Source: Methylococcus sp. EFPC2 (GTDB lineage Bacteria; Pseudomonadota; Gammaproteobacteria; Methylococcales; Methylococcaceae). Taken from it: DNA of 64,000 bases. The position numbers and the translations under genes are program-made. Positions 13,570 to 24,266 of the stretch are shown here, one piece after another. The stretch lies in assembly GCF_016925495.1 (NCBI RefSeq), contig NZ_CP070491.1:2914001-2978000 (forward strand), given 5' to 3'. The notes under the pieces were generated by a model. That model had not been told where the DNA came from and searched no databases. It worked only from the letters and a program-made list of their open reading frames with translations. How positions within the stretch are numbered: the stretch's first letter is position 1; the number at the start of each line of letters is the position of its first letter.

Positions 13570-15705
13570 TCATGACAACAGGGGCACGATGAGCAGGGCC
13601 ACGATATTGATGATCTTGATCATCGGGTTGATGGCGGGGCCGGCGGTATCCTTATAGGGATCGCCCACGGTATCGCCCGTCACCGCGGCCTTGTGCGCCT
13701 CGGAGCCTTTGCCGCCGAAATGGCCATCTTCTATGTATTTCTTGGCGTTGTCCCAGGCGCCGCCACCGGTGGTCATGGAAATCGCCACGAACAGGCCGGT
13801 GATGATGGAGCCGATCAACACGCCGCCCAAGGCCTCCTTGCCCAGCACCAAGCCGACGATCAAGGGAATCGCGATGGGCAGCAGGGACGGCAGGATCATC
13901 TCGTGGATAGCGGCCTTGGTCAGCATGTCCACGGCCTTGGAATAATCCGGCTTGGCGGTGTAATTCATGATGCCGGGTATCTCCCGGAACTGACGGCGCA
14001 CCTCGTTGACGATGCCGCCGGCCGCCCGGCCTACGGCTTCCATGGCCAGGGCGCCGAACAGATAAGGCACCAGTCCGCCGATGAACAGGCCGATGATGAT
14101 CTTGTGGTTGGACAGATCGAAGGCGATGCCGCCGCCCAGGTTGTGGGTGTAGTCGGCGAACAGCACCAGCGCGGCCAATCCGGCGGAACCGATGGCATAG
14201 CCCTTGGTGACGGCCTTGGTGGTGTTGCCGACGGCGTCGAGCGGATCGGTGATATCGCGGATCGCATCGGGCAGATCGGCCATCTCGGCGATGCCGCCGG
14301 CGTTGTCGGTGATGGGGCCGTAAGCGTCGAGGGCGACGATCATGCCGGTCATCGACAGCATGGCGGTGGCGGCGATGGCAATGCCGTACAGACCGGCCAG
14401 GGCATGCGCGCCCCAGATGCTGGCACAGACCGCCAGCACGGGCAGGGCCGTGGATTTCATCGACACGGCCAGGCCGGCGATGATGTTGGTGCCGTGACCG
14501 GTGGTGGACGCCTGGGCGATCTGGCGCACCGGGCCGAATTCGGTGGCTGTGTAATATTCGGTGATCACGACCATCAGGGCGGTCAGGATCAGGCCGATCA
14601 GGGCGGAGAAATACAGGCTGTGCGCGCCTATGCTCTCGCCGCCGAAACTGACCCCGCCGCCGAACAGGACCAGGGTAATGGGATAAAAGGCCAGGGCCGC
14701 CAAGCCGCCGGACACGATGACGCCCTTGTAGAGTGCGGTCATGATCTTCTTGCCGGGCTCGACCTTGACGTAGTAGGAGCCGACGATGGAGGTGAGGATG
14801 GATATACCGCCGAGGATCAGCGGATAAACGATGGCGCGTCCTGAGCCTTCGGTGAGTATGCCGCCCAGCAGCATGGTGGCGACCAGGGTCACCGCATAGG
14901 TTTCGAACAGATCGGCCGCCATGCCGGCGCAGTCGCCCACGTTGTCGCCCACGTTATCGGCAATCACGGCCGGGTTGCGCGGATCGTCCTCGGGTATGCC
15001 GGCTTCGACCTTGCCCACCAGATCGGCTCCGACGTCCGCGCCCTTGGTGAAGATGCCGCCGCCGAGCCGGGCGAAGATGGAGATCAGCGAACCGCCGAAG
15101 GCCAGGCCGACCAGCGCATGCAGCGGGTCCTCGACATGCGCCGCCAACAGCAGCGTGTAATAGCCGGCGACGCCCAAAAGTCCCAAGCCCACCACCAGCA
15201 AGCCGGTGATGGCGCCGCCGCGGAAGGCCACTTCGAACGCCGCCGCCAAGCCGCCGCTCGCCGCCTGCGCCGTGCGACTATTGGCGCGCACCGAAATGTT
15301 CATGCCGATGTAGCCGGCCGCCCCCGAGAGCAAGGCACCGATGGCGAAACCGAAAGCCACCGGCCATCCGAGCAGGAAGCCGATGACGAAAAACAGCAAT
15401 CCACCGACCAGACCGATGGTCTTGTATTGCCGATTCAGATAAGCCTGCGCGCCTTGCTGGATGGCCGCTGCGATCTCCACCATGCGGACATTGCCCGGCG
15501 GCTGGGCATTGATCCAGGCGATCGAGAGTATGCCGTAGATCAGGGCGGCGAGGGCTGCGGTGAAGGCAAAAGCCGTTCCGAAGTCGATGGCAAAGCCGAT
15601 AAAAAAGAACTCGACCAGACCGAACAGGGCGATACGCTTGCATCGCTTGTCTTGCAGGACCTGGCTCAAGCCGGCTTTGACACAAGCAACCGTAGAGTTC
15701 GACAT
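13570..15705 (-). CDS. hppA: Membrane-bound H+-translocating pyrophosphatase
   Basis: Couples pyrophosphate hydrolysis to proton pumping across the inner membrane. About 711 residues with roughly 16 membrane segments. The substrate site is seen in [20 protein letters not shown] and [20 protein letters not shown]. The segment [16 protein letters not shown] carries Lys where K+-dependent enzymes have Ala, which predicts a K+-independent H+ pump. ATG 15705 is preferred over GTG 15708, since AAGGAG lies seven bases before the ATG. It follows pfp by 50 bp on the same strand, the pairing reported as co-transcribed in Methylococcus capsulatus, so PPi metabolism is linked to glycolytic flux and membrane energy. 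Confidence 0.97.
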
Positions 15706-15755
15706 CACTATGCTCCTTTGTTGGTCTGGTTATGGGGCAGTTTCCGGGGCGGGAC

Positions 15756-17018
15756 TCAGGGCGTAAAAGTAGTGGAAAGCCTCTTTTCGACCGCCGAATT
15801 TTTCAGGACAACGTAGTCGGGAAGACCGCCACGGTAAGGTGGATAATCCTCGCCTTCGATCAAGGGCTGCAGATAGGCCCGGCACACGGGCGTGATACCG
15901 AAGCCGTCCTCGCTGATGAACTCGCGCGGCATCTTCTTTTCCACGTTGGCGACGTCGGCCAGATCCGCGCTGCCGATTTCCCAACGATAAGGGCTATCGG
16001 AGGTACGCACCACCGTCGGCATGACCGCGTTGCGACCGCTCAAGGCCAGTTCGACCGCGGCCTTGCCGAGGGCGTAGGCCTGTTCCACGTCGGTCCTGGA
16101 GGCGATATGCCGGGCGGCGCGCTGGAGATAATCGGCCACCGCCCAATGGAAGCGGTGTCCCAGTTTGCTCTTGATCAAATTCGCCACCACCGGCGCAACG
16201 CCACCCAGCTGGGCGTGGCCGAAGGCGTCGCGGACGCCGGAGTCGGACAGGAATTTGCCGTCCGCAGCCTTGACGCCTTCGGAAACCACGACCGAACAAT
16301 AGCCGTAGCGCCGTACCTTTTCGTCCACCTTGGCCAAAAAGCGCCCCGCATCGAAAGCCACCTCCGGAAACAGGATGACCAGGGGAATGTCGTGATTCTC
16401 GTCGGCAGCCAGGCCGCCGGCCGCGGCGATCCAGCCGGCATGGCGGCCCATCACTTCGATCACGAAGATCTTGGTGGAGGTGGCGCACATGGAGGCCACA
16501 TCGAAGCTGGCCTCGCGGGTGGACACCGCGATGTATTTGGCCACCGAGCCGAAGCCGGGGCAGTTGTCGGTGATCGGCAAATCGTTGTCCACCGTCTTGG
16601 GGATGCCGATGCAGGTCAGAGGATAGCCGAGCTTTTCGCCCAGCTGGGTGACCTTGTGCGCGGTATCCTGCGAATCACCGCCGCCGTTATAGAAGAAGTA
16701 GCCGATATCGTGGGCCTTGAACACTTCGATCAGGCGTTCGTACTGGGCCTTGTTTTCTTCCAGACCCTTGAGTTTGTAGCGGCAGGAACCGAATGCGCCA
16801 GACGGGGTGTAGCGCAGCGCGGCGATGGCCTCGTCGGACTCGAGGCCGGTGTCGATGAGATCTTCGGTGAGCGCACCGATGATGCCGTTGCGTCCTGCAT
16901 AGACCTTGCCGATGCGATCCGGATGGCGGCGGGCGGTTTCGATCAATCCGGCGGCCGACGCATTGATGACTGCCGTGACACCGCCGGACTGGGCGTAAAA
17001 AGCGTTCCTTATACTCAT
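15756..17018 (-). CDS. pfp: Pyrophosphate-dependent 6-phosphofructokinase
   Basis: Reversibly phosphorylates fructose 6-phosphate using PPi instead of ATP. The protein from MSIRNAFYAQSGGVTAVINA has 420 residues. The motif GGGDSQDTA supplies the Asp that marks PPi use in place of the Gly of ATP enzymes, and PKTVDNDLP contains the second PPi-selective Lys and the catalytic Asp. MGRHAGW is the sugar-phosphate loop. The frame is open upstream to 17210, but the family start is at 17018. It is first of the pfp-hppA pair and is divergent from a PilZ gene. In methanotrophs with the RuMP pathway the enzyme can also act on sedoheptulose phosphates. Confidence 0.96.
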   Translation of the reverse strand: MSIRNAFYAQSGGVTAVINASAAGLIETARRHPDRIGKVYAGRNGIIGALTEDLIDTGLESDEAIAALRYTPSGAFGSCRYKLKGLEENKAQYERLIEVFKAHDIGYFFYNGGGDSQDTAHKVTQLGEKLGYPLTCIGIPKTVDNDLPITDNCPGFGSVAKYIAVSTREASFDVASMCATSTKIFVIEVMGRHAGWIAAAGGLAADENHDIPLVILFPEVAFDAGRFLAKVDEKVRRYGYCSVVVSEGVKAADGKFLSDSGVRDAFGHAQLGGVAPVVANLIKSKLGHRFHWAVADYLQRAARHIASRTDVEQAYALGKAAVELALSGRNAVMPTVVRTSDSPYRWEIGSADLADVANVEKKMPREFISEDGFGITPVCRAYLQPLIEGEDYPPYRGGLPDYVVLKNSAVEKRLSTTFTP

Positions 17019-17215
17019 AAGCAGGCTCGGAATTAGGCTCAGATTCCGCATTAGAACAACAATGCCCACGCCGTTCAAGGCCGCCCGCCGTCTGCGAGAA
17101 CCGGGGAATATCTGCAACGGCGCGGGCTTGAAGCGCCGGGGCGCGCCGTATACCCTTGTTGCAGTAGCCACCCGACAGGGCCAGCCCCTTTCCGGCCCAT
17201 CCAACCCCATACCCC

Positions 17216-17689: not shown

Positions 17690-20161
17690 ATGCCCTACCC
17701 CGCTCGCTTCCTTATTCCGCTCTTAATCTGCCTGTGCGTTTTCAATTTTTCCGCCGCTGCGCAGGCGCCGGACAGCCCGCGCCCGCTGAGCACACTGGTC
17801 AAAGCCTGGAACAGCGTACTCGAAGAAGCCGATCAGAGCCTGCTCAAACCGGAAGTCGCGGACGAACGGCTGGAAGAACTCCGCGCCGAAGTGGCCAAAC
17901 TTCGCCTCGACGCCATCGCCGCGGCCGACGGCGCGGCACCCGATGTGCAACTGATACGGGACGAGCTCCAAGCCCTGGGCCCGCCGCCCGCCGAGGGCCA
18001 GCCGCCGGATTCCCCGTCGGTGGTTTCCAAACGCAAAGCCATCGTCGAAAAACTGGCCGCGGCGGAAGGCACGATCAAGGAGACCGAACTGGTCATCGCC
18101 CGTGCCGACCGGATACTCGGCCAGTCCGCAACCCTGCGCCGGCAGCGTTTCACCGAGCGTGTGCTCGCGCGCGGTCCCTCGCCGGTTTCCGCAGCCATAT
18201 GGAAAAAAGCCGGTTCCGACGATTTAGGGGCGATCCAGGCCTGCTGGACCGGAATGGCGGCGTGGTTCCAGAGCCCCGCATTGGCCCAGCAGGGCTGGCG
18301 CCTGGCGGCCAACCTCGCACTTGCCTTGGTAGCCGCCCTGACGCTGAGCGGGCTGTTACGCCGCTGGCTGACGCACCGCTACGGCTATGTGTCCGTGGCG
18401 ACGGAACCCAGCCACCGCCAACGCTTGCGCACCGCGCTCGTGGCCGGCCTGGTCCGCAGCCTCATGCCGGCTGGCGCCACGCTGTCGGCCTATTTTGTCC
18501 TGCGCGCATCGGATCTGCTCGACGATGCCGGCGTTCTGGCGCTGCGGGCCGCCCTCCTGGCGCTGATGTCCTTCTATTTTGTGGCGGCGTTCAGCCGGGC
18601 GGCATTGGCCCCGTTCGACCCGGACTGGCGCATCGTCGGCTTCGGCGACCAGGCCGCGCGCTCGGTCAGCCGCATGGTCACGGCTCTGGCCCTGGTGTTC
18701 GCCCTGGACTGGGTGATCGACACGCTCGGCGAGCAGTATGGCGCGTCGCTCGAACAAGTCATCGTCCATAAGCTGCTCTCCGGGCTGGTCGTCGCCGGCC
18801 TGTTGCTGGCCTTGTTGAGCGAAAGTATCTGGCACGCGCCGGCCGAGCGCTTCGGAGCGGAACTGGCCCAACGCGTCTGGCACAGACTGCGCTGGCTGCT
18901 GCGTCTCCTGGTCTTGAGCATTCCCGTTTCCGCTCTGCTCGGCTATGTGGCCCTGTCCCGGGTACTCGCGACCCAGTTGGTGCTGACCCCCGCCATCCTA
19001 CTCGGCGCCACGCTGGCGCGTCGCATCTGCGCGGAATCGATAGGCCATCTGTTCAGCCGGCACTCGGCCTGGGGACAGCACCTGCGGCTGGCCCTCAGTC
19101 TCACGGACGAAGGCTGCGAGATGTTGGGATTCTGGCTGAACGAGGCGGTCGGCCTCGTGATACTGCTGACGGCATTCGCCGCGCTGCTGGTCTTGTGGGG
19201 CGCCGGTCGAGACGATATCGCCGGTTGGGCCTACGACGCCTTCATCGGCTTCAAGATCGGCAACGTTACGCTGTCCTTGGCCGACATCCTGCTGGCGATC
19301 CTGCTGTTCGCCGTATTGCTGACGGCGACCCGTCTGTTCCAACGCATGCTGGAACACCGCCTGTTCCCGCGCACCCGGCTGGATTTGGGCGTGCGCAACT
19401 CCATCCGCGCGGCGGTGGGCTATCTCGGGTTCCTGCTGGCGGGCGCCGTTGCCGTTTCCATCGTGGGCATCGACCTGAACAACCTGGCCATCATCGCCGG
19501 TGCGCTTTCGGTCGGCATCGGCTTTGGCCTGCAAAACATCGTCAACAACTTCGTCTCCGGCCTGATCCTGCTGGTCGAACGCCCCATCAAATGTGGCGAC
19601 TGGGTCGTGGTCGGCGAACACCAGGGCCACGTGCGCAAAATCAGCGTGCGGGCCACCGAGATCACCACCTTCGACCGGGCTTCGGTGTTCATCCCCAACT
19701 CCAACCTGATCGCCTCGCCGGTGATGAACCGGACTTATGCCGACAAAGTCGGCCGCGTCGTGCTACCGGTGGGAGTCGCCTACGGCAGCGAAGCCTCGAT
19801 GGTCAGGGATTTGTTGCTGGATATCGTCGGAGCTCACCCCGACGTGTTGAAAAACCCCGCGCCGCAAGTTCAGTTCCGAAGCTTCAGCGAAAACACCATC
19901 CACCTGGAAATAGTCGCTTTCATCCCCGATGTCGACCGAGTGAAGAGCGTGACCAGCGATTTGGGATTCGAAATCGATGCGGTGTTTCGCCGCGAGGGCA
20001 TACAGATGACCGTCCCGCAGCGCGACGTGCACGTCCTGCTGCGGGAAGATCAGCTGGAAAAACTGATCGGAGCGCTGACTAAAGTATCAAACCGCGCGCC
20101 CAGCATGGAGACTCGATGCGAGCCAGCAGCCGTTACGGACAAGGAGCGCCCGCCGGCGTAG
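17690..20161 (+). CDS. MscS-family mechanosensitive channel with DUF3772 N-terminus
   Basis: An 823-residue inner-membrane channel. A signal peptide (cleaved near FSAAAQA) is followed by a periplasmic, partly coiled-coil DUF3772-type region (about 30-190) and about ten membrane segments. The MscS core includes the pore helix in AGALSVGIGFGLQNIVNNFV and the loop VERPIKCGDWVVVGEHQGHV; a cytoplasmic cage domain follows. Such large MscS proteins release solutes during osmotic downshock. No clear ribosome site precedes ATG 17690, but the signal peptide supports it. The 3' end overlaps the convergent secreted-protein gene by 29 bp. Confidence 0.88.
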   Translation: MPYPARFLIPLLICLCVFNFSAAAQAPDSPRPLSTLVKAWNSVLEEADQSLLKPEVADERLEELRAEVAKLRLDAIAAADGAAPDVQLIRDELQALGPPPAEGQPPDSPSVVSKRKAIVEKLAAAEGTIKETELVIARADRILGQSATLRRQRFTERVLARGPSPVSAAIWKKAGSDDLGAIQACWTGMAAWFQSPALAQQGWRLAANLALALVAALTLSGLLRRWLTHRYGYVSVATEPSHRQRLRTALVAGLVRSLMPAGATLSAYFVLRASDLLDDAGVLALRAALLALMSFYFVAAFSRAALAPFDPDWRIVGFGDQAARSVSRMVTALALVFALDWVIDTLGEQYGASLEQVIVHKLLSGLVVAGLLLALLSESIWHAPAERFGAELAQRVWHRLRWLLRLLVLSIPVSALLGYVALSRVLATQLVLTPAILLGATLARRICAESIGHLFSRHSAWGQHLRLALSLTDEGCEMLGFWLNEAVGLVILLTAFAALLVLWGAGRDDIAGWAYDAFIGFKIGNVTLSLADILLAILLFAVLLTATRLFQRMLEHRLFPRTRLDLGVRNSIRAAVGYLGFLLAGAVAVSIVGIDLNNLAIIAGALSVGIGFGLQNIVNNFVSGLILLVERPIKCGDWVVVGEHQGHVRKISVRATEITTFDRASVFIPNSNLIASPVMNRTYADKVGRVVLPVGVAYGSEASMVRDLLLDIVGAHPDVLKNPAPQVQFRSFSENTIHLEIVAFIPDVDRVKSVTSDLGFEIDAVFRREGIQMTVPQRDVHVLLREDQLEKLIGALTKVSNRAPSMETRCEPAAVTDKERPPA

Positions 20162-20579
20162 ACGAGACGATGTGCGCGATCTGCGTAGTGCCGTTGCAGA
20201 AATAGACGTTAGCGCCTGTCTGCCATAACTCCCAGGTGTAGGTACCATCACCGGTATAAATATACTTTACCGACCGGCTATTACCGATGCCGGTGATTTC
20301 CCACGTACCCCGCTTCACGCGCGGATCCACTGGGGTTCCGGCACCGACTTTGTAAAGGTTCGCCGGACCGGTGCCCGCACCCACCGAACAATGGTCTTCC
20401 TTCCAATCCTCGTTGCTCGGGGCCGGCGCCACAGCGTGGATGCTCTTGCCGCTTAACGCAGTGCGAATGGCGGGAGCCGTGCCGATGCGCACATCCCCGG
20501 CCGTACCACAGATCGCCATCGCTTCTCCGGATATCCCGGCGAGCAGTACCAGGCCCATCACCGCTAATTTTTTCTTCAT
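20133..20579 (-). CDS. Small secreted protein with four cysteines, unknown function
   Basis: A 148-residue protein with a clear signal peptide (MKKKLAVMGLVLLAGISGEA, cleavage after AMA). The mature part of about 126 residues has four Cys (24, 64, 128, 147), enough for two disulfides, and a Gly/Thr/Tyr-rich region (KRGTWEITGIGNS, YIYTGDGTYTWELW) suggesting beta structure. I do not recognise the family. The start has GGGGAGA upstream. It stands alone between two large membrane genes and its last 29 bp overlap the end of the convergent channel gene. Confidence 0.7.
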   Translation of the reverse strand: MKKKLAVMGLVLLAGISGEAMAICGTAGDVRIGTAPAIRTALSGKSIHAVAPAPSNEDWKEDHCSVGAGTGPANLYKVGAGTPVDPRVKRGTWEITGIGNSRSVKYIYTGDGTYTWELWQTGANVYFCNGTTQIAHIVSSTPAGAPCP

Positions 20580-20767: not shown

Positions 20768-23700
20768 CTACCCCCGTTCGGAACACCGACTAAGCGTCAG
20801 TGTCACGGCAATCAAAAAGCCTGAATAAAACAACATCGACAGCCTCGGATTATCCAAAGTACTGCCCAACAATCCCACCACGAAAAAGGCCGACACGGCA
20901 CCGGCATATCCGGCGGAAACCAGATCCCCGGCGGCAGGCCACAAGGCCCGAAGCAATCCGACATACACCAATCCGAGTGCCAGCAAACCCAACACTCCCT
21001 GGGCGAAAAAAACCTCGACGGCTTGCTGGTGTATGTGCCAAGCCAAATCCTGATCGGCGACGAACAGCCAGCGCGCATCCCCTTGCTCGAATCCCCCGTT
21101 AGCCACCCGTTCCACCGCATCATCCGCCTTAAGGCTCACGTCGTCGACTTCGATGGCCCCCCCTCCGCCCGGATTCTGCAACGAAAGCTTGAGTGGGCGA
21201 TAAAGCCCGCCGGAACTTTGCAGCTTCTCGGTGTCCAGCGGCACGGACAGCGTTTGCCACTGCCCGGCCGGCGTCTCCGACTGCAGTCGCTGCCAGGTGC
21301 AGTCGAACGAATACAGCAACGCTTTGTGGCAAAGCGCCACGCTCAGGGCCGATTCGGCTTGTGCCTGACGCATCCTTACCGACAAGGTGTAAGGTTTTCC
21401 CGGTTCGATATCGACGATTTGATCGAGGAACACCGATTCGCCCGCACCCAGGCTCAGATAAGGATTGCCGCCCTCGCTCAGCACCGCGTAGGTACCCGGC
21501 AACTTTTCACTCTGCGCGCGCAAGAGATATAGCAGGGGATATTGACCGAAGCCCATGCCGGCCGCCCCGCTGAGCGCATTCCTGTCCATCAGGCCGAGCG
21601 CTCGGTGCCAGTGTCCGAAACGGATGGCCATATCGTCCGCCGCGAGCGTCAGGCGCTTCTGCGCGAAGCTACCCGAAACCACCGGTACCGCGACTGCGAT
21701 CGATGCCGCCACCATGCCGGCGAATAGCCACCACTTTGAGCCGGACGAGGAAACCGTGCGCCCCCGCCACAAACTCAGCGCCAAGGGGACTAATCCCACC
21801 AGCAAGGCCGCATAACCCACGCGTGCGAAAGTGACCATCATGGCGTAACTGGAAAGCACGACGGCCAAAACCCCGAGCCCACCATAGAGCCAGTTCCGCG
21901 CCTGCAACACCCAAGCGATCAGCAGGGGGAAGGTGAATGCGATGAAGGCTTCGATATAGGCCCCACCGGTGTTCATCCCCGAAAACGGGCCGGTCACCCG
22001 AAACACGTTATCGAAATCCGCCAGCCCCACGTAAGCTTGCCTTTCCCATAGAATTACCGCGGACGCCGATACCAGGGCAATCAGCCATCCTCGCCGGAAC
22101 CAGCGGACCGCCAGCGGGGCAAGCGCAGGTGGCACGCGCCTGGCGACGGGAACCAGCAGCAGGACCCACAACAAACCCTTGCCGACCCGCCAAGCCTCGA
22201 GCGGAGAATGGGAACTGGGTGGAACGGGCCAATCCGCTTCCAGCAAAGGCCAAAGTCCCCTCGCGGTGGACCAGGCCCAACTCGCCCACAAGGCGTAATA
22301 AGCCAGCCTCAGCCAGCGGTTCGGCCAGGGGGCAGGCGATCCCCGATAGTAACGGGGATAAACCAGGGCGAGCGTCAGCAAGACCGCCAGATCGAATTCG
22401 TCCAGCCACAAGCGGCCGGTGACGGGGCTCAGGTCCAGTATCGCCAACAGGACCGGCAACACGACAAACAGCCAAACCGGGTTCCGCCACAACAACGTGC
22501 CGTAGGCGAGCAGCCCCAGAACCAACCAGGGTCTGCCGACGGGATAGCCCCAGAAGCCGATCAGCATGAGCAACGCGGCGGTGAGCGTCACCAGCCAGGC
22601 CATGGGATGAACCGAAAAGGCGAGATCCGGCAACGACCGCACCGCGACCGCATCCGGATCCAGACGTCGGACCTGGGTTACGCCGACAGTCGCGAATTCA
22701 TAGGCCGGAACACCAGCACCCTCCTCCCGCAGCACGCGCTCCAGCCACAGGCACAAAGCCAGGGTGATCGCCGCCGACACCGACGCTATCACCACATTGG
22801 TGAAATCGGGATGACCGGCCGCCAGCCACAGCTTGCCGAACTCCATCGGCAGTGCCAGCAAGCCCGCCACCCCCGCCGCGATCGGCATGCCGCTCCGCCG
22901 GCCCAGGCGCGCCGCCCACACGGCCACGCCCACCGGCGCATACATGCCCGCCTGGGCCAGCAGGCTCACCATGGCCGCGGTTTCGGTGGTGTAGTAGTGA
23001 TAATAAAAAGGCAACCAGCGCTGGCTGTCCAAGCGTGCCAAGGCTTCCTGGGTGGACAGCCAGGGCCCGGGATAAGCCCCGTTGAGGACGGCTACGGCCA
23101 ACAGATAGGGCGGCAAGATCCAGGGCAAGATGCGTCTCAGCAGCCGGGCGACCGGCGCCGCACCCGACCGACGCAGATACTGCCCGGCCGCATATCCGGC
23201 AGCCAGCCCCGCACCGCGCAAAACCAGGGACCAGCCCTGGCTGACGCCGGAAGCCAGCATGATCTGCATGCTTTCCAGGACGAATCCGAGGGAAACGCCG
23301 ATCAGAAACACCCGACGCAGACTCAGGCTGCGCGCGGCCAGAGCCATCAATATGCCCAGCGGTACAACCGCCAGGACTTCGCCGAGCTGGCGGGCGCCGC
23401 AGCGCAGCCACCCGCCGCAATCGCCCGCCAACAGCCAGCCGAGGTTGTCCGAATCCAGCTTCCAGGCCAGTTCGTCGGGATCGACCAGCAAATCGTAAGG
23501 AAACAGCGAAAGCAGCAGATAGCCCAGCCCATAGAGGGTAAACACCGCCACCACCGACGGCCGCCCACCAGCTACATACGCGTCCAGCAGATCCGCCAGG
23601 CGCCAACGTCCCTGAAAGAACAGGGCGATCCCCGCCAACGAACCCAGTGTCTCGGCCAGCAAATCGTTGAGGGAAACGGTACGCGGCGCGAAAAATATCT

Positions 23701-24028
23701 GCGTGAACTCGACCGCGACCGCGACCGCCAGGCAAAACGCCAGCACCGGCAAGGCCGCCAACAGACGCAAAACGCCCGGCGCACGCAATCCGATGAGGGC
23801 GGCGCAGCCGAGGAAGGAAAGCGGAACGTAGAGCACGATATTGGCGACCCAGTCGGCGCGCGACCCGATCCCGAGATGCAGATAGGCGATGCCGGCGAAG
23901 CGCTGCAGTGCCAACTCCAGGCTCAGCGGCCGATATTCGAACGGCACCAGGCTGCCATAAACGACGAAGGCCAGATAGACGAGAAAAATCGGCCAGACGC
24001 GCAGACGTGCGGATAGTAATACGGTCAT
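20768..24028 (-). CDS. Giant membrane protein: VanZ-like units fused to an O-antigen-ligase module
   Basis: 1086 residues and about 20 or more membrane segments. The N-terminal half contains about three VanZ-like units, seen as VEFTQIFFAPRTVSLNDLLA, LESMQIMLASGVSQG and MEFGKLWLAAGHPDFTNVVI. The C-terminal half resembles Wzy/WaaL polymerase-ligases: FSGMNTGGAYIEAFIAFTFP and, near the end, HIHQQAVEVFFAQGVLGLLA, which looks like the family's periplasmic-loop His motif (His near 998). A soluble region of about 150 residues lies before that His in the periplasmic loop (DIEPGKPYTLSVRMRQA, then IEVDDVSLK and NGGFEQGDARW) and resembles a carbohydrate-binding beta-sandwich. Start ATG 24028 is chosen over frame extensions to 24145. 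Probably a surface-glycan polymerase or ligase; substrate unknown. Confidence 0.75.
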   Translation of the reverse strand: MTVLLSARLRVWPIFLVYLAFVVYGSLVPFEYRPLSLELALQRFAGIAYLHLGIGSRADWVANIVLYVPLSFLGCAALIGLRAPGVLRLLAALPVLAFCLAVAVAVEFTQIFFAPRTVSLNDLLAETLGSLAGIALFFQGRWRLADLLDAYVAGGRPSVVAVFTLYGLGYLLLSLFPYDLLVDPDELAWKLDSDNLGWLLAGDCGGWLRCGARQLGEVLAVVPLGILMALAARSLSLRRVFLIGVSLGFVLESMQIMLASGVSQGWSLVLRGAGLAAGYAAGQYLRRSGAAPVARLLRRILPWILPPYLLAVAVLNGAYPGPWLSTQEALARLDSQRWLPFYYHYYTTETAAMVSLLAQAGMYAPVGVAVWAARLGRRSGMPIAAGVAGLLALPMEFGKLWLAAGHPDFTNVVIASVSAAITLALCLWLERVLREEGAGVPAYEFATVGVTQVRRLDPDAVAVRSLPDLAFSVHPMAWLVTLTAALLMLIGFWGYPVGRPWLVLGLLAYGTLLWRNPVWLFVVLPVLLAILDLSPVTGRLWLDEFDLAVLLTLALVYPRYYRGSPAPWPNRWLRLAYYALWASWAWSTARGLWPLLEADWPVPPSSHSPLEAWRVGKGLLWVLLLVPVARRVPPALAPLAVRWFRRGWLIALVSASAVILWERQAYVGLADFDNVFRVTGPFSGMNTGGAYIEAFIAFTFPLLIAWVLQARNWLYGGLGVLAVVLSSYAMMVTFARVGYAALLVGLVPLALSLWRGRTVSSSGSKWWLFAGMVAASIAVAVPVVSGSFAQKRLTLAADDMAIRFGHWHRALGLMDRNALSGAAGMGFGQYPLLYLLRAQSEKLPGTYAVLSEGGNPYLSLGAGESVFLDQIVDIEPGKPYTLSVRMRQAQAESALSVALCHKALLYSFDCTWQRLQSETPAGQWQTLSVPLDTEKLQSSGGLYRPLKLSLQNPGGGGAIEVDDVSLKADDAVERVANGGFEQGDARWLFVADQDLAWHIHQQAVEVFFAQGVLGLLALGLVYVGLLRALWPAAGDLVSAGYAGAVSAFFVVGLLGSTLDNPRLSMLFYSGFLIAVTLTLSRCSERG

Positions 24029-24266
24029 GAAGAGCGCCTCGCGCGGATGACTGCCTGTGCCCCTAGAAGAACCCCCGGCACCCGGCGCGGTCAAGCCCTG
24101 TATCGCCGGAAAATGCCAAAAGCGTGTCGACTTGATGCAAATCAATACTTCCCGAACTCGCCGGGTTTAGAGTCTGGCCCCGGCGTGGCCCAGAGGCCAT
24201 GTCGAAACGGGGCAGGCTGTGGCCCGCCCGATTTCGTGTCAACCATCCTCACCGAGAGGGGCAAAC

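Follow-up and report, generated by a model that had tools for sequence, protein, structure and literature searches.

Three VanZ (Lipocone) units, a WaaL/Wzy-type ligase or polymerase module and a carbohydrate-binding module (CBM)-like loop domain are joined in one protein of Methylococcus sp. EFPC2. Its gene occupies 20768..24028 on the minus strand of the 64,000-nucleotide stretch analysed here (the window, to which all positions refer unless a locus or contig is named) and encodes 1086 amino acids (aa). Next on the same strand is the gene of a small secreted protein. The novelty lies in the combination of VanZ triple, ligase/polymerase and CBM in a single chain, in the exchange of modules with a lyase-like one among relatives, and in the small partner. 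Our favoured reading, held at a little less than an even chance, is that a polymerase or ligase of exopolysaccharide is coupled here to a Lipocone enzyme, that both work on one polyprenyl-diphosphate carrier, and that the small protein acts as a partner. An initial annotation had described a very large VanZ-repeat/ligase fusion at this position, and the open reading frame (ORF), its coordinates and its length were all verified.

With 292 relatives found by scanning genome contigs, the fusion design is common. The best 80 of the 292 were kept as loci (L numbers below; G numbers are genomes). The alignment comprises 72 sequences, namely the window protein and 71 of the 80 kept relatives, which share 30-55% identity with it; those omitted were either shorter than 1000 aa (L106, L109, L115, L117, L118) or longer or divergent (L112, L119, L122, L124). 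By title, most of the 80 kept are Beta- or Gammaproteobacteria, including Methylococcaceae, Nitrosomonadaceae, Comamonadaceae, Rhodocyclaceae and Accumulibacter. Among 61 genomes (our own and 60 relatives), 18 had a match and 13, our own included, a full-length one.

The ORF, supported by Pfam and its homologues, runs from an ATG at 24028 to a stop at 20768-20770, and an alternative in-frame TTG start is possible upstream at 24145. In an AlphaFold2 model built from the 72 sequences (mean pLDDT 89.6, pTM 0.74), each VanZ unit has four long helices; after the units come a linker, another helical bundle and a domain rich in strands (residues 847-967). The linker, modelled with low confidence, lies within residues 442-470 (22619..22705, minus strand), where the VanZ half meets the WaaL/Wzy half. 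Domain search and structure prediction, the checks proposed at the outset, brought out both VanZ and WaaL-type similarity. Neither Pfam nor the model revealed a cytoplasmic signalling domain in the fusion. No solved structure matched the VanZ half in the Foldseek or VIA-align lists; this is no sign of a new fold, because those lists are filled by the other domains. An antisense ORF (22208..24016, plus strand, 602 aa) was judged to be no more than a mechanical by-product of a GC-rich gene: in 13 full-length proteins, our own included, it is the minus frame that is conserved. A Pfam HAD match (E 0.083) was also dropped, being below cut-off and within the helical bundle.

Pfam VanZ (PF04892) matches two stretches with 74.3 bits, above its curated cut-off of 30.1. 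Alignment, AlphaFold2 and profile comparison delimit three units on the minus strand: unit 1 (residues 10-154, 23567..24001), which Pfam also supports, unit 2 (residues 155-290, 23159..23566) and unit 3 (residues 291-437, 22718..23158). In profile-profile comparison of columns from 72 homologues, unit 1 matched unit 2 at 93.0% (E 3.5e-7) and unit 3 at 90.5% (E 1.4e-6). Units 2 and 3 matched each other at 49.3%, and the remaining 18 of the 21 segment pairs, which set units against WaaL/Wzy segments or the latter among themselves, reached at most 9.3%. The three VanZ-like units first proposed are therefore borne out, the third being real by this comparison.

The six pocket residues of unit 1 (N63, E107, Q110, R116, D122 and E126) are each present in all 72 sequences, as are R57, D59, S119, N121, G129 and G133. 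These include the VanZ-1 hallmarks of an Asn in helix H2 (N63) and an ExxQ motif in H3 (E107, Q110). In unit 2, E217, E252, Q255 and S267 are each found in 72/72 and R271 in 70/72; in unit 3, E349 and E396 are in 72/72, K399 in 70/72 and D408 in 71/72. The H4 positions of units 2 and 3 differ from those of unit 1. Judged by sequence, the canonical pocket is retained in unit 1 only, and units 2 and 3 have altered ones.

The second half of the protein, residues 475-1080 (20789..22606, minus strand), is delimited as a WaaL/Wzy-type module by Pfam, alignment, AlphaFold2, Foldseek and VIA-align. Wzy_C (PF04932) matches residues 721-829 with 27.1 bits, short of the curated 31.7; a version encoded as a separate gene at L201 scores 33.7 bits. 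VIA-align places the helical bundle on WaaL (7tpg) with Z 21.4 over 358 of 403 residues at 5.1 Å. Foldseek also ranks 7tpg first, with CBMs next, though weakly (best E 2.2e-3). The Wzy/WaaL-like module of the initial annotation is thus upheld by fold, the PF04932 score itself being below cut-off. The fusion has no match at E up to 1 to PglL_A (PF15864) or Wzy_C_2 (PF11846) in Pfam, nor to TIGR03097 in NCBIfam.

The last large loop of this module holds a CBM4-like beta-sandwich (residues 844-971, 21116..21499, minus strand), supported by AlphaFold2, Foldseek, VIA-align and a profile. VIA-align superposes it on 4mgq with Z 12.2 over 126 residues at 2.6 Å, many CBM4/16/36/6 entries follow at Z 9-10, and the sequence profile matches the 4mgq CBM with E 3.4e-5. 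C900 and C910 of this domain are found in all 72 sequences. Toxin receptor-binding domains listed by Foldseek were read as the common beta-sandwich fold only. The soluble sandwich that had been noticed in the loop is therefore of CBM type by both fold and sequence profile. It had also been placed before a catalytic-type His, and this part of the claim holds less well: in the H-I-H at residues 998-1000 (21029..21037, minus strand, from the alignment), position 998 is His in 62/72, Asn in 6, Arg in 3 and Asp in 1, and H1000 is His in 12/72. H1000 presumably sits at WaaL-type His spacing.

R736, R792 and R803 in the WaaL/Wzy half are each found in 72/72. Together with H998, they may correspond to catalytic residues of Escherichia coli WaaL, of which R215, R288 and H338 are named as important (PMC3643930). 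Losing the WaaL-type His need not abolish catalysis, because Asp262 of RodA has been proposed to fill its role (PMC10449877).

The modules occur in several combinations. Between the VanZ triple, the WaaL/Wzy-CBM half and a heparinase-II/III-like module, all three pairwise fusions are seen, one of them through a heparinase match below cut-off, and the modules also occur as separate genes. Stand-alone VanZ triples are found at L205 (by Pfam) and at L207 and L208 (by our own profile). At L201, a VanZ triple adjoins a separate WaaL/Wzy-CBM gene, the order on one strand being small gene, VanZ triple, WaaL/Wzy-CBM and an HtrA-like ORF (recognised by eye); at L202, the VanZ triple and the WaaL/Wzy-CBM gene are convergent. 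Fusions of the VanZ triple to Hepar_II_III_C/DUF4962 occur at L042, L189, L203, L204, L210 and L212. WaaL/Wzy-CBM proteins without VanZ are found at L018-L021 and L193-L195; one of these (L193:117-4391) carries a long Hepar_II_III_C-like C-terminus (19.3 bits, cut-off 24) and another (L194:1786-6201) a long beta-helix C-terminus (22.0 bits, cut-off 25.9). In a quick tree of 95 VanZ-triple domains, stand-alone and heparinase-fused forms are scattered among the WaaL/Wzy fusions, with seven changes of fusion label, at least four of them forced by well-supported branches.

Two further observations concern the VanZ triple. Genome G013 encodes a second VanZ-triple protein (L042:9654-13208), in which a heparinase II/III-like C-terminus replaces WaaL/Wzy. 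There is also a divergent VanZ-triple clade (L185-L188, L197, L198 and relatives; eight in the tree), most members of which have about 350 extra residues.

The small protein gene (20133..20579, minus strand; ORF and profile) lies 188 bases downstream of the fusion and encodes 148 aa with a signal-peptide-like start, as judged by eye. No Pfam or NCBIfam family covers it, 27 members giving stray single matches only. By profile, 31/80 loci have a member; none of these lies more than 1.7 kb from the fusion and 30 lie within 1 kb, up to 10 kb being searchable on each side. E61, H63, G91, W93 and Y108 are invariant in the family. Each of 32 aligned members has one Cys at either of two sites: 27 at the first only, 5 at the second only, and none at both or neither. 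This Cys pattern, with the invariant residues, suggests a folded, oxidised, probably extracytoplasmic domain. The model is strand-rich (mean pLDDT 80.1), with weak fold matches to a designed barrel (top, Z 7.4) and to lipocalins (best Z 6.8); Foldseek returned no match to it below E 0.5. As a separate observation, three of the 15 loci inspected around small genes (L138, L140 and L143) have another short ORF close by that looks secreted and contains the motif YYDVxNW.

The small gene was then followed across 251 genomes of the order and 369 genomes at class level, using a profile made from members adjoining fusions, which distant members may escape. The lists of genomes with both halves, the VanZ triple or Wzy were sorted by hand from the match rows, and the scans scored up to three candidates per genome at order level and up to two at class level, so absences there are soft. 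In the order, 36/251 genomes have the small gene and 33 of these 36 have both halves (p 2.4e-28; the Fisher tests on co-occurrence count genomes as independent). The exceptions are G137, with an internal stop in its small gene, and G161 and G234, with fusion fragments only. Co-occurrence persists where the genes are hundreds of kb apart (G043, G100, G124, G164) or on different contigs (G076, G166, G215).

At class level, all nine strong carriers of the small protein have the VanZ triple (p 2.6e-12) and only four of the nine have the WaaL/Wzy-CBM half (p 1.1e-4). A weak small-protein match in G404 (E 2e-4) comes with neither half; including it, the counts become 9/10 and 4/10. Because the class scan scored no more than two candidates per genome, both halves were rescored over all candidates in 16 class genomes. 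The VanZ triple was kept in all nine strong carriers, G271, G418, G491, G525 and G404 gave no WaaL/Wzy-CBM match, and G586 gave one of 21 bits. Class-wide rescoring of the Wzy half, at up to three candidates per genome, returned the same 13 Wzy genomes. In two carriers, the small gene lies close to a VanZ-triple-heparinase-like gene, 24 bases away in G491 (L204) and 2.1 kb away in G586 (L203).

Around part of the fusions lie genes of exopolysaccharide and exosortase-A type. Neighbours were called with our own ORF picker, which called some antisense frames wrongly, including that of the window, and clusters were named from one or two representatives each. Representatives include TIGR03098, TIGR03099, TIGR03097, TIGR03013, Asn synthase and polysaccharide deacetylase, together with an HtrA-like protease (19/80 loci), Sat/APS kinase (12/80) and an additional VanZ-only gene (7/80). 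At least one exosortase-A-type hallmark neighbour is present at 31/80 loci, and at 18 of the 41 loci with more than 8 kb on both sides. An exosortase match is found in 42 of the 44 order genomes with both halves, against 160 of the 251 order genomes (p 1.8e-7). It had been suggested from the fusion itself that VanZ units act on lipid-linked glycans. The link is backed by the module swapping and these neighbours; the idea itself had already been proposed (PMC12419801). Downstream of the fusion at L114, L123 and L124, the VanZ-only gene, an unmatched gene and Sat/APS kinase stand together. The gene beside the VanZ-only and Sat genes has no Pfam or NCBIfam match (representative from L050), and the cluster of VanZ-only gene and Sat/APS kinase hints at sulfate activation.

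In the window, the scanned neighbours of the fusion are genes for a mechanosensitive channel, hemerythrin, PilZ, PFK and Methyltransf_9, the last of which we take to be CmoB-type. A predicted membrane pyrophosphatase-like ORF and the PFK-family gene (Pfam PFK) lie side by side (13570..15708 and 15756..17210, both on the minus strand). Besides its XrtA gene, considered below, the genome has another exosortase match at C1:2192103.

Taken as an inner-membrane exopolysaccharide enzyme, the fusion would have two active sites on its periplasmic side, coupled to each other. The WaaL/Wzy half would transfer or polymerise a glycan borne on undecaprenyl diphosphate, while the CBM-like domain may hold the growing or acceptor glycan beside the active site. 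Unit 1 would act on the same carrier by breaking or exchanging the lipid-phosphate link, leading to chain release or to processing of the spent carrier. Units 2 and 3 may serve in lipid binding or in shaping the site, with no part in the standard chemistry. The VanZ triple would have the small barrel-like protein as its soluble partner, whose most likely ligand is the glycan set free or the lipid head group.

Several observations weigh against this proposal. No VanZ activity is described in the literature consulted, the VanZ reactions given in PMC12419801 being predictions, and unit 1 lacks the VanZ-1 H4 motif DxDDxxxN, having S119-x-N121-D122-x-x-x-E126 in 72/72 instead. The WaaL-type His is not invariant, being Asn at L051, L054, L059, L060, L062 and L095, the last from Methylotuvimicrobium buryatense 5G, which carries the fusion. 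No glycan gene was recognised by Pfam among the scanned window genes beside the fusion, and the genome's own XrtA, at C1:952505, is about 2 Mb away. XrtA exceeds its curated cut-off in 24 of the 44 genomes with both halves (71/251 overall). As for the small protein, its order-level carriers do not tell the halves apart, 33/36 having the VanZ triple and 34/36 Wzy. The gene was not found in 11 of the 44 order genomes with both halves, in 14 of the 23 class-level genomes with the VanZ triple, or in 18 order genomes in which the VanZ triple is not joined to Wzy (16 divergent, G042 and the fragment G247). The 16 divergent ones are low-scoring. The five carriers without Wzy come from only two families, and three share a genus; they are therefore few independent cases. 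Finally, in a mirror-tree test with 29 loci and 406 pairs, the VanZ triple did not come out ahead as the small protein's partner, with a partial r of 0.27 for Wzy and -0.09 for the VanZ triple.

Other explanations draw on the same evidence. The VanZ triple could be only a scaffold, or a platform that gathers lipid, for an ordinary Wzy polymerase or WaaL ligase, with unit 1 non-catalytic. The loss of the canonical pocket in units 2 and 3 and the existence of WaaL/Wzy-CBM proteins without VanZ (L018-L021, L193-L195) would suit such a role. However, the polar pocket of unit 1 is kept in 72/72 sequences despite 30-55% identity, and VanZ triples occur alone or fused to a lyase-like module, where no polymerase needs a scaffold; we regard this explanation as unlikely. 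A protein O-oligosaccharyltransferase with the small secreted protein as its dedicated acceptor appears less probable again. Its appeal comes from the WaaL-like fold, from a small secreted gene adjoining at 31/80 loci, for which enzyme/target gene adjacency offers a precedent (PMC3643930, PMC12645811), and from a distance correlation leaning slightly towards Wzy. PglL_A and Wzy_C_2 are nonetheless unmatched at E up to 1, and the invariants of the small family (E61, H63, G91, W93, Y108) include no Ser/Thr site. Furthermore, five of the nine class-level carriers pair the small protein with the VanZ triple and not with Wzy-CBM, other WaaL-type enzymes being possible there.

A sensory function, in which the VanZ triple reads the state of lipid-linked glycan or envelope and regulates the ligase or, via the small protein, matrix assembly, is quite improbable. 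PMC12419801 does describe VanZ fusions to signalling and ligand-binding domains, yet the modules partnering VanZ here are glycan-synthesis or lyase-like ones, and no cytoplasmic signalling domain was found in the fusion. Resistance to glycopeptides or other cell-wall antibiotics is suggested by the name and by weak NCBIfam matches to vanZ-A (21.7 bits) and vanZ-F (17.7 bits). These scores are far below the respective cut-offs of 250 and 375, and the recognised neighbours at related loci are of exopolysaccharide type (no search was aimed at other van genes), which leaves this explanation with very little probability. In the van cluster, the role of VanZ is described as still unknown (PMC12419801).

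A bolder form of the coupled-enzyme reading, which we put forward as a long shot, is that the VanZ triple and the small barrel form the core of an undescribed terminal step of exopolysaccharide export. Unit 1 would detach the completed chain from undecaprenyl diphosphate, the secreted barrel would receive it covalently or as cargo, and the WaaL/Wzy and heparinase-like modules would be interchangeable plug-ins. If true, VanZ would thereby acquire both a reaction and a partner protein.

More generally, VanZ is here part of one chain with a polymerase/ligase whose fold is known, takes part in module exchange involving a lyase-like module and is linked genetically to a soluble partner. A single gene, a handful of pocket residues and a small secreted protein provide handles on VanZ action on lipid-linked glycans in methanotrophs and betaproteobacteria that can be manipulated genetically, and the small protein's tracking of VanZ across genomes makes VanZ function testable. 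The initial annotation knew of no characterised protein of this design, and the literature on VanZ fusions, searched by title and abstract, showed none either, PMC12419801 alone being relevant; the figures or source data of PMC12419801 may show the architecture.

The loop domain shares the beta-sandwich fold of CBM4/CBM16 modules (4mgq, 1gu3, 2zex) and matches the 4mgq profile (E 3.4e-5); unlike them, it is modelled within the loop of a membrane glycosyltransferase-type protein, and its carbohydrate binding is putative. WaaL (PF04932; 7tpg) shares the fold over 358/403 residues and, presumably, the conserved Arg residues, whereas the fusion scores below the Pfam cut-off and has a CBM-like loop domain, a variable His and an N-terminal VanZ triple. 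TIGR03097 (PEP_O_lig_1, an exosortase A-associated putative O-glycosylation ligase) is encoded close to the fusion in some genomes (L045); it is a separate protein, to which the fusion is unmatched. The PglL/PglS O-oligosaccharyltransferases resemble the fusion in that a Wzy_C-type enzyme is encoded next to a small secreted protein (PMC3643930, PMC12645811). The fusion differs in having no PglL_A or Wzy_C_2 match, in a partner modelled as a barrel and not pilin-like, and in that this partner follows the VanZ triple even where the Wzy-CBM half is missing.

The fusion is also related to VanZ-1 (PF04892) of the Lipocone superfamily, which is proposed to cleave or exchange the polyprenyl-diphosphate link of exopolysaccharide precursors and to which WaaL-like enzymes are joined or encoded close by (PMC12419801). 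The Pfam score over cut-off, the H2 Asn and H3 ExxQ of unit 1, the predicted action on polyprenyl-diphosphate glycans and the exopolysaccharide context are shared. In contrast, the fusion has three tandem units of which one is canonical, reads SxNDxxxE in place of DxDDxxxN in H4, and is joined to a ligase/polymerase and paired with a small secreted protein. Betaproteobacterial proteins with a duplicated VanZ-1, the second copy inactive, are described in the same source, and the window protein, with one apparently intact and two apparently altered units, fits this Lipocone frame.

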